A stretch of DNA of 40,889 bases, from positions 1-40,889 of the forward strand of contig LCJG01000015.1 in NCBI GenBank assembly GCA_000998025.1, given 5' to 3'. A program made the translations under genes and the position numbers. The number at the start of each line of letters is the position of its first letter. The first letter of the stretch is position 1. Under the pieces are notes generated by a model. The model saw only the letters and a list, made by a program, of their open reading frames with translations, searched no databases and was not told the origin of the DNA. Shown here in pieces: positions 8,086 to 22,292 of this stretch. Source of the DNA: Candidatus Collierbacteria bacterium GW2011_GWB1_44_6 (lineage in GTDB: Bacteria > Patescibacteriota > Microgenomatia > UBA1400 > MFAQ01).

Positions 8086-9888
8086 ATGTCAAGTCTAATC
8101 AGAAATTTTTCTATCATTGCTCATATTGACGCCGGAAAATCTACGCTGGCGGATCGACTTATGGAAATTACCGGTGCGGTAAAGGGCGATAAAATGACCC
8201 CGCAATTGTTGGATAGTAATCCGATTGAGAGAGAACGGGGTATCACCATAAAACTTGCCCCCGTATCAATGACCTATCATGGCTACAGCTTAAACCTAAT
8301 TGACACTCCTGGCCACGTCGATTTCAACTACGAAGTTGAGCGAGCCCTCCAGGCCTGCGAAGGTGCCATATTATTAGTGGATGCCACTAAGGGAGTTCAG
8401 GCGCAAACGGTCGCCAATCTCCGCTTGGCAAAAAACCTTGGTCTGACCATCATTCCTGTGATCAACAAAATTGATGCTCCTTTGGCCGACGTCCCCGCCG
8501 CCACCCGCCAAATAAAACTTCTACTTGGATTACAGAGTGACCCTCTTTTTGTCTCCGCCAAAACAGGGGAGGGCGTCGAAAACTTATTGGAAAAAATTAT
8601 TTCTGACCTCCCCTCTCCAAAAACATCTGTCATCCCGAGCGTAGTCGAGGGATCCCACTCCACCGCACCATTTCAAGCCCTCGTCTTCAACTCCACCTTT
8701 GATACTCACCTGGGAGTCATTGCTTTTGTCAAAATAATCACCGGAAATTTAAATGCTGGTGACAAACTATCCTTCTTAAGTTCCGGCCAGTCTCTAACTT
8801 CTCAGGAAATAGGCATTTTTTCTCCAGGCAGAACAGAGAAAAAAATACTCACCTCTGGTAGTGTCGGATATATCATTACCGGGCTGAAGGACATCCGTAA
8901 TGTGCTCGTCGGAGATACCTTGTGTCTTTCCCATCAAGTCAAGCTGGTTTCCCCAATTCCTGGCTTTCGGAAAATTCACCCTAATGTCTTTCTGGATTTC
9001 TATCCCGCCGAAGGTTCTCAGTATAGAGACTTGCTCGATGCTCTGGAGAAATTGAAACTAAACGACTCATCTCTTACCACTCAAGGAATAAACTCTCCCA
9101 TTTTGGGGCAAGGGGTCAAGGTTGGCTTTCTGGGTATGCTTCACTCCGAGGTGGTCGGTGAAAGACTTGAGAGAGAATTTAATCTTCCGGTTATTTCCGT
9201 TTCTCCTTCAGTTGAATATAAGGTAGCAGTTCGCTCCGGTGATGAAAAAATATTTAGTTCACCAGCCGATTTTCCCGATCCTGCCACAATAGTCCAAGGC
9301 TACGAACCTATGGCGGCAGTCAATATCGTCGTTACTTCTCCTTACGTGGGCGCTGTCATGGAACTCTGCCAGGATCTTCGTGGCAATTTAGTTAACGTTT
9401 CCTATCTAGACCAGTTGGTAGAAATCGATTATTTTTTGCCTCTAATTGAAGTCATTACCGCACTTCACGACAGTCTCAAAAGCGTTTCACAGGGTTTTGC
9501 GTCCATGGACTACGAATTAGCCGGTTGGCAAGAAGCGGAGCTCGTTAAGCTCGACGTTTTACTCAATCACGAGCTCTTTGCACCCATGAGTGTCATTACG
9601 GTTAGAGAAAAAGCCTACCAAAAAGGTAAAAAGGTAGCCGAGAAGTTAAAAGAAGCTATACCTAGGCAACAATTCGAAATTCCTATTCAGGTTGCCATCG
9701 GCGGCCAGATCGTGGCCCGCGAAACCATCAAGGCCTACCGCAAAGATGTTGATGCCAAGCTTCATGGGGGAGACTTTACCCGGAATCTAAAACTCCTCAA
9801 TAAGCAGAAAAAAGGCAAAGCCCGCATGAAGCAGTTCGGCAAAGTCAGCGTGCCCCAGGAAGCCTTCCTGGCCATCGCCAAATCCTAG
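8086..9888 (+). CDS. lepA: Elongation factor 4 (LepA)
   Basis: ORF 600 aa; NFSIIAHIDAGKSTLADRL, DTPGHVDF, NKIDAP, C-terminal GKARMKQFGKVSVPQEAFLAIAK. Confidence 0.95.
   Translation: MSSLIRNFSIIAHIDAGKSTLADRLMEITGAVKGDKMTPQLLDSNPIERERGITIKLAPVSMTYHGYSLNLIDTPGHVDFNYEVERALQACEGAILLVDATKGVQAQTVANLRLAKNLGLTIIPVINKIDAPLADVPAATRQIKLLLGLQSDPLFVSAKTGEGVENLLEKIISDLPSPKTSVIPSVVEGSHSTAPFQALVFNSTFDTHLGVIAFVKIITGNLNAGDKLSFLSSGQSLTSQEIGIFSPGRTEKKILTSGSVGYIITGLKDIRNVLVGDTLCLSHQVKLVSPIPGFRKIHPNVFLDFYPAEGSQYRDLLDALEKLKLNDSSLTTQGINSPILGQGVKVGFLGMLHSEVVGERLEREFNLPVISVSPSVEYKVAVRSGDEKIFSSPADFPDPATIVQGYEPMAAVNIVVTSPYVGAVMELCQDLRGNLVNVSYLDQLVEIDYFLPLIEVITALHDSLKSVSQGFASMDYELAGWQEAELVKLDVLLNHELFAPMSVITVREKAYQKGKKVAEKLKEAIPRQQFEIPIQVAIGGQIVARETIKAYRKDVDAKLHGGDFTRNLKLLNKQKKGKARMKQFGKVSVPQEAFLAIAKS
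8629..8654 (+). repeat. Hairpin repeat family copy, in-frame within lepA
   Basis: GTCATCCCGAGCGTAGTCGAGGGATC; stem ATCCC/GGGAT; identical to 12657 copy. Confidence 0.9.
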
Positions 9889-9915: not shown

Positions 9916-11344
9916 TCAAAACTCTACGGTAAACATCGCAGCCGTGTTTGGGCCAAAAAACTCCGAAGTTTTCCAAGTCGCCGAGGTGGTCGCTACCGTA
10001 AGCGTCCGGCTTGCACCTAGAAAATCAGTCCTCGTAATCTTAAAGTTTAGTTTCGGTAAATTCTCAAAGGTCATCGGCACCGCTTCGGAGTGAATTCTCA
10101 AAGGTCATCGGCACCGCTTCGGAGTGAGAACCTTTTGGGTCATAATTAACCACCATAATTTTTAGATTTCCTTTATCGTCCGTGGAGGCAATACTTTTTA
10201 CCCAGCTTCCCTCCCCGGCCACACTCATCCGGTAAGGTCCCAAATTATTTAAAAATTGGAGCGCGAAGTATCTCGGTTTCTTTTCCGGAGCACCATATTT
10301 TTCATGAGTCAGAATTCCCCACCTACCCCAGTATTTTTCTGTACCGGGACCGTCTTTAATTTCAAAAAGGAAAGCTCTGTCCACGACCCCCATCATTGCC
10401 CGTGCGCCCGCCAGAGTGTGAATTGCACCAAATCTTCCGTCATAGCCCTTGTCAATTTCGCTATTATGTCCCCATTCGGTGACGTAAAATTTTAGATTGA
10501 CGAGGGCTGGAATATTTTCCGCCCACCTTTTCGCCTGTAGCACGTCTTTCTCATACTGTTCCAAATCGTAAGCGTACCGATGCCAGCTCAAAAAATCGAG
10601 TCGAAGGTTATTTGCGTCCACATACTTGATTAGTCTCTCTTCCCAGTTTTGATAGAGGCCAGTCGTTGCGGGTCCACCAATTTCAAATAGATTTGTCCCT
10701 CTCACTCTAGCCGCAGCTCGTGCCGAAACGGCATACATCTCTAGGTAATTCCTGTCACCATAGGTTTTGTATCCTCCAAACAAATCGGGCTCATTCCATA
10801 CTTCATAGATCACCCCATCAATATTTTTTTGACTTCGGCCGCTATAGTGTTCTATGGTCGCCTGGACTAGCTGCCCCCACTCACTCCAATCTTTTGCCGG
10901 AGATACTATATCGCTGGTCGCCATAACAGGCGGCATGTATGACAAAGATAAGAAGGGTTTTGCTCCTGTTGCCAAAATAACATCCACCGCTTGGTCCAGA
11001 CCTGACCAATCAAAGGTAAGTTGCCCATCGTCAGTTCTGGAGACCACCTTAAACGCGTCATATATATGATCGAGTCTAATATATTCCATCCTCAATGCTT
11101 TGACCGCATCCACTACGGGCGCAAGCATTTCTTTGGGCTCTTCCCCCCCTTGCCCTATGTTTCTCCATGGTTGAGGCATTTTCCCAAGTACGCCTTCATA
11201 ATTAAAGACCAAATTAGCAGGGAATCCAGCCGCCTTACCGACAAATTGAACTGCTGATGGAATTGCCACTACTACCACAATGATCACCAATAGTCCGACA
11301 ATCAGCGGGGTTAACCCCCTAAGAATTTTTTTTCGATTAGCCAT
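9916..11344 (-). pseudogene. GH39-like glycoside hydrolase, frameshifted by a 34-bp tandem duplication
   Basis: ORFs 10064..11344 and 9916..10101 share HSEAVPMTFEN; VWNEPDLFGG and FYVTEWG acid/base and nucleophile-like motifs; deleting one 34-nt copy gives 1395 nt (465 codons). Confidence 0.8.
10060..10127. repeat. Perfect 2 x 34-bp tandem direct duplication
   Basis: attctcaaaggtcatcggcaccgcttcggagtga at 10060-10093 and 10094-10127. Confidence 0.97.
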
Positions 11345-11407: not shown

Positions 11408-12133
11408 ATGGATCTAACTGAGCGCCAGATTCTCATCATCAAGACTATTGTCGAAGAATTTACCGAGTCAGCTGAGCCCGTTGGTTCTGTTGCTTTGGAA
11501 AATAAATACAGGTTAGGGGTTTCTCCGGCTACTCTCAGAAACGAAATGGCGAGTCTTGAAGAAAAAGGATTCTTATCTCAACCTCACGCCTCTTCAGGTC
11601 GCATTCCCACTCCTCTTGCCATCAAATTCTATGTCAACGAGCTCATGAAAGAAAAGCAGCTTAGTGTGGCCGAAGAAGTTGGTGTCAAATCTCGGGTTTG
11701 GGATCACCGGTTTAATCGGGATGACTTGCTCCATGAAGCCACCAAAGTTTTGGCAGAAAGAACCAAGGCGCTTTGTGTCGCCGCTTTTGATGAGGGGCAA
11801 AGCTTCCATTCTGGTTATGCCAATATTTTTAATGCTATTGAATTCAAAGATCTGGACATCACTCGAGAAATCTTTTATCTTTTAGACGAGCAAGCACGTC
11901 TTATGGATATCTTTGGTCGCGCGGCCGGGAACAACCCTATACATATTTTGGTAGGGGATGAAATGGGAGTCAGTCTATTTCAACCTGTGAGTTGTGTTTT
12001 TGCCGACATTCACGTCAGTGGTCGCAGGGGTAGCCTTGGAATTATTGGTCCGAGCCGACAAGAATACGATCGCAATATACCCTTTGTTCGATATGTTGCC
12101 AATTTAGTAAATCAAATAGCCGGAGAATGGTAA
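11408..12133 (+). CDS. hrcA: Heat-inducible transcription repressor HrcA (short form)
   Basis: ORF 241 aa; LTERQILIIKTIVEEFTESAEPVGS..L......VSPATLRNEMASLEEKGFLSQPHASSGRIPT. Confidence 0.92.
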   Translation: MDLTERQILIIKTIVEEFTESAEPVGSVALENKYRLGVSPATLRNEMASLEEKGFLSQPHASSGRIPTPLAIKFYVNELMKEKQLSVAEEVGVKSRVWDHRFNRDDLLHEATKVLAERTKALCVAAFDEGQSFHSGYANIFNAIEFKDLDITREIFYLLDEQARLMDIFGRAAGNNPIHILVGDEMGVSLFQPVSCVFADIHVSGRRGSLGIIGPSRQEYDRNIPFVRYVANLVNQIAGEW

Positions 12134-21896: not shown

Positions 21897-22184
21897 ATGG
21901 CCCTAAAATCAGACACCAAAATAGACATCATTAAGAAATTTGCCGCAAGTCCCAAGGACACCGGCTCGCCACGAGTGCAGATCGCTCTCCTCACCACTCA
22001 GATCGAGGAGCTCACCGGCCACCTCAAGGTCCACAAAAAAGACAATCACTCTCGCCGTGGCCTTCTCAAGATCATCTCCAAGCGCCGCCGTCTTCTCAAC
22101 TACCTTTCCAAATCCAACCCAAAAGACTATTTAGACATTACCAAGTCACTTAAAATTACTAGCCAGTTGCGCTCAGCCGAATAA
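21897..22184 (+). CDS. rpsO: 30S ribosomal protein uS15
   Basis: [70 protein letters not shown]; start chosen downstream of track start. Confidence 0.96.
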
Positions 22185-22292
22185 GTTGGGTTTAGCTTGA
22201 GGAGTAAATAGAGAAAATCTGTTTTTCTTTGGTTCTTTCTGTTTTCTTCTCAAGACCTGTGGTCGAGCGCGCAATATGAAAGGAAACCGGAT

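Follow-up and report, generated by a model that had tools for sequence, protein, structure and literature searches.

The known contingency loci consist of short repeats in many copies, and a pair of 34-bp copies is unlike them. Exact and recent tandem duplications do occur in bacteria. Doubled sequence can also arise during assembly: work on gap closers describes 'negative gaps' that result from overlapping contig ends (PMC4091766), and the documented classes of error include false duplications at contig boundaries (PMC8081667).

The window analysed here is the whole of contig LCJG01000015.1 (40,889 nucleotides; C15 in Table 1), one of the 67 contigs of a draft metagenome-assembled genome of Candidatus Collierbacteria bacterium GW2011_GWB1_44_6 (964,574 bp, 77.8% complete). 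In this contig a 34-bp unit stands twice, exact and head to tail, within a gene for a GH39-type glycoside hydrolase. The second copy is very probably an assembly artefact, a judgement drawn from the genome-wide pattern: the same kind of exact doubling breaks uvrB and other genes in the draft and is absent from the relatives.

The 34-bp duplication in the GH39 gene

Tandem Repeats Finder (TRF) returned the duplication with a period of 34, 2.0 copies and a 100% match. By chance, ∼8 × 10−15 exact tandem repeats with units of at least 34 bp would be expected in the genome, and a chance origin was thus ruled out. Since 34 is not divisible by three, the reading frame of the gene is broken in the sequence, and its 464-aa frame on the minus strand is now read as 426 aa. 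This product starts at 11344 and ends in ...HSEAVPMTFENSLRSGADDL before its stop codon (...MTFENSLRSGADDL). The other frame reads HSEAVPMTFENLPKLNFKITRTDFLGASRTLTVATTSATWKTSEFFGPNTAAMFTVEF up to a stop and carries the tail ...LPKLNFKITRTDFLGAS...MFTVEF. The part cut off from the protein is its C-terminal 47 residues. An earlier note on this DNA had placed the two copies, and the frameshift that they cause, as in Table 1; its coordinates and translations are right, and recomputation gave the same uninterrupted frame of 1395 nt and 464 aa once one copy is removed.

Table 1. Features at the GH39 locus and exact two-copy tandem duplications across the draft genome
Feature	Location	Strand	Remark
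LepA/EF4-like GTPase	8086..9888	+	convergent with the GH39 gene; identity recognised from sequence
Out-of-frame remainder of the GH39 gene	9916..10102	-	approximate open-frame extent; conserved C-terminal residues ...LPKLNFKITRTDFLGASRTLTVATTSATWKTSEFFGPNTAAMFTVEF, then stop
First 34-bp copy	10060..10093	none	register slides by one base: 10059 matches too
Second 34-bp copy	10094..10127	none	identical to first; likely abutment point of two overlapping contig ends
426-aa ORF	10064..11344	-	N-terminal hydrophobic segment and GH39 catalytic region (WNEPD, TEWG); C-terminus truncated
HrcA-like repressor	11408..12133	+	divergent from the GH39 gene; identity recognised from sequence
Duplication, 81 bp	C12 5836-5999		poorly coding region
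Duplication, 23 bp	C13 21109-21154		repetitive gene with second 57-bp array
Duplication, 34 bp	C15 10060-10127		GH39 gene
Duplication, 23 bp	C16 19265-19310 (L055)		Wzy_C/TPR gene split
Duplication, 17 bp	C21 2404-2440		near small ORFs
Duplication, 38 bp	C24 1546-1621 (L063)		uvrB split into two overlapping ORFs
Duplication, 29 bp	C37 1766-1823 (L076)		membrane protein without Pfam match split
Duplication, 41 bp	C43 375-456 (L082)		very start of murA
Duplication, 29 bp	C60 5309-5367		

The description of the gene as GH39-like was borne out by a profile match of the 426-aa product to PF01229 (E = 1.9 × 10−28; 100 bits against a curated cut-off of 26), and the same profile matches an intact relative (E = 9.1 × 10−30). 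The truncated product retains WNEPD. In the intact relative, WNEPD aligns with NEP, and YVTEW with YFTEW, of the beta-xylosidase structure 6uqj. This alignment to solved beta-xylosidases puts both catalytic Glu motifs upstream of the break; judged by motif only, the acid/base and nucleophile Glu motifs of GH39 are present.

The gene was found in 41 of 55 related genomes, the named congeners compared being Candidatus Collierbacteria of the Microgenomates. Seven congeners gave near-full-length matches at 77–84% identity, with open frames of 464–481 codons from stop to stop, and the match in an eighth ends at the end of its contig. In all full-length relatives examined, congeneric Ca. Collierbacteria included, the unit stands once and the frame is open over ∼463 aa. 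In the realigned set, the tail follows directly after MTFEN in every readable congener. The 34-bp unit has its best match at a single orthologous site in each readable relative, with the second-best match at background level, and none of the relatives whose coding sequence could be read showed a repeat tract at that site or a variation in copy number. The comparison of related strains proposed in the earlier note thus gave a single copy and an open frame in all readable relatives. A naturally shorter C-terminus, which the same note had named as an outcome that would overturn its reading, was ruled out, the recovered relatives having the long tail. These statements leave out L004, which is cut short by the end of its contig, and L023. 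The latter (G036:C31), from an order-level relative, has one in-frame TGA in its GH39 homologue, for which a lesion, a sequencing error or recoding are possible. The HrcA-like gene adjoins the orthologous GH39 gene in the congener G002 as well (tblastx).

The cut-off tail is identical to that of the nearest relatives at 40 of its 47 residues, against ∼341 of 405 for the body of the protein. Substitution measures were likewise similar, with pN of 0.106–0.143 and pS of 0.67–0.79 in the tail and pN of 0.095–0.140 and pS of 0.76–0.84 in the body. Further stops and relaxed constraint, as in a decaying pseudogene, were looked for in the tail and none were found. An old pseudogene was ruled out on these grounds, the tail being fully constrained and free of other lesions. 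With conservation equal to that of the body, the tail cannot have escaped selection for a measurable period, and the break, if it is real at all, must be extremely recent.

Exact duplications across the draft genome

All exact tandem repeats with a unit of at least 10 bp were collected from the entire 964,574-base draft. Nine exact two-copy duplications with units of 17–81 bp were present (Table 1), where ∼1 × 10−4 would be expected by chance, and in eight of the nine the unit length is not a multiple of three. Besides the GH39 gene, conserved genes are interrupted by at least four of the others, in uvrB, murA, the Wzy/TPR gene and the membrane protein gene. The two uvrB pieces match positions 1–292 and 278–651 of the 653 in the UvrB profile; the ranges overlap, and the overlap is thus the duplicated 38-bp stretch. 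In murA, the duplication puts the start codon out of frame and the N-terminal start is lost. The duplications on C12, C13 and C21 could be real. On C13 (21011-21154; L120), the exact 23-bp duplication shares part of its sequence with a 57-bp array (2.1 copies, 98%) in a collagen-like repetitive frame, and the two together could be either real or an assembly error. C12 also holds a near-exact (95%) two-copy 40-bp duplication (22112-22192; L119), which may belong to this class if one of the ends contains a sequencing error.

One genome served as control at the genome scale, that of congener G002, a single contig of 1.09 Mb with 72 kb masked. Its ∼1.02 Mb of unmasked sequence contained no exact duplication outside low-complexity sequence with a unit of at least 17 bp. 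The four orthologues are open there, with 696 (uvrB), 442 (murA), 649 (Wzy/TPR) and 643 (membrane protein) codons from stop to stop, and a single stretch of its uvrB (718829-718867) aligns to both 38-bp copies of the draft. G002 does carry scattered two-copy repeats of a recurrent 16-bp TTTTGAGT-like unit (C1 14118-14407, 361291, 871446, 881044, 1082016 and 1085718), which do not appear in the tandem-repeat list of the draft.

Microhomology at the junctions of the nine duplications was 0–3 bp, with a mean of 0.78, close to the 0.68 predicted for blunt abutment (P(sum ≥ 7) = 0.41). Slippage usually begins from short direct repeats, so that a longer extension would be expected from it. Ten runs of N remain in the draft, five with no more than a single N, and two of its scaffold gaps are flanked on both sides by the same 7–8 bp. 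These N runs and repeated gap flanks indicate that scaffolding was part of this assembly and that it apparently left some overlapping ends unmerged.

Origin of the second copy

Assembly error had been one of three options in the earlier note, and the genome-wide pattern of duplications supports it well; together with the N runs and repeated gap flanks, it is what one would expect from overlapping contig ends set end to end unmerged. Two short-read contigs, or gap-fill extensions, would have overlapped by 34 bp within the GH39 gene. Scaffolding or gap closing would then have placed the pieces end to end with the overlap unmerged, and the 34 bp would have been written twice, which would break the frame on paper only; the exact step is one that we infer. 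The organism itself most likely carries one copy and, like its relatives, an intact, membrane-anchored GH39-type glycoside hydrolase of 463–464 aa.

A genuine and very recent tandem duplication, in the strain or in part of the population, would truncate the enzyme in the same way and leave a fresh pseudogene or a transient polymorphism of no regulatory meaning. The exact and clean duplication, the catalytic motifs upstream of the break and the undecayed tail, with its 40 of 47 identical residues and body-like pN and pS, are also expected of such an event. However, at least four further conserved genes, uvrB and murA included, would have had to be broken likewise at the same time, the single-contig G002 has no such duplications, and the junction lacks microhomology of the kind that slippage usually uses. 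We therefore consider a real event unlikely, and the fresh pseudogene offered in the earlier note, which fits the undecayed tail and needs several simultaneous lesions, less likely than an artefact. To take all nine duplications as real, with short tandem duplications arising in a burst and without microhomology in a Collierbacteria population, breaking uvrB, murA and other genes, and with the GH39 break among the transient or reversible lesions, seems highly improbable.

The earlier note had also suggested a reversible switch, in which slippage gains or loses one 34-bp copy and so turns the full-length glycosidase off or on. The geometry would permit this, as the unit has a length not divisible by three, lies within the coding region and as one copy leaves an intact frame. 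However, the readable relatives all have a single copy, the unit matching one site with no repeat tract around it, and the same class of duplication strikes uvrB and murA, implausible targets that do not belong to the switchable surface genes. Phase variation at this locus is accordingly barely credible.

With the assembly artefact as the preferred reading, the 34-bp duplication is most likely neither a real feature nor of biological importance. It does matter for annotation: through the same kind of join, at least five genes of the public draft (GH39, uvrB, murA, Wzy/TPR and membrane protein) would be taken for broken or missing ones. Scans of metagenome-assembled genomes for slippage switches or pseudogenes should begin by counting the exact two-copy duplications in the whole bin.

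Comparison with known systems

The product shares with glycoside hydrolase family 39 (beta-xylosidase type, PF01229) the profile match and the WNEPD and TEWG motifs. It is, however, distant from characterised GH39 enzymes and has an N-terminal hydrophobic segment, and its enzymatic activity is a prediction from sequence. With phase-variable contingency loci, the duplication has in common a unit length not divisible by three and a position inside a gene, whereas the copy number of only two, the long unit, the lack of copy-number variation among relatives and the affected housekeeping genes set it apart. The published false duplications in vertebrates are about as long as a read and come from long reads, whereas the units in this draft are of 17–81 bp, so that a short-read scaffolder or gap closer was probably at work. 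The closest likeness is to a false duplication at a contig boundary, or unmerged 'negative gap', in that the draft holds several exact head-to-tail pairs, without microhomology and placed blindly with respect to function (PMC4091766, PMC8081667).
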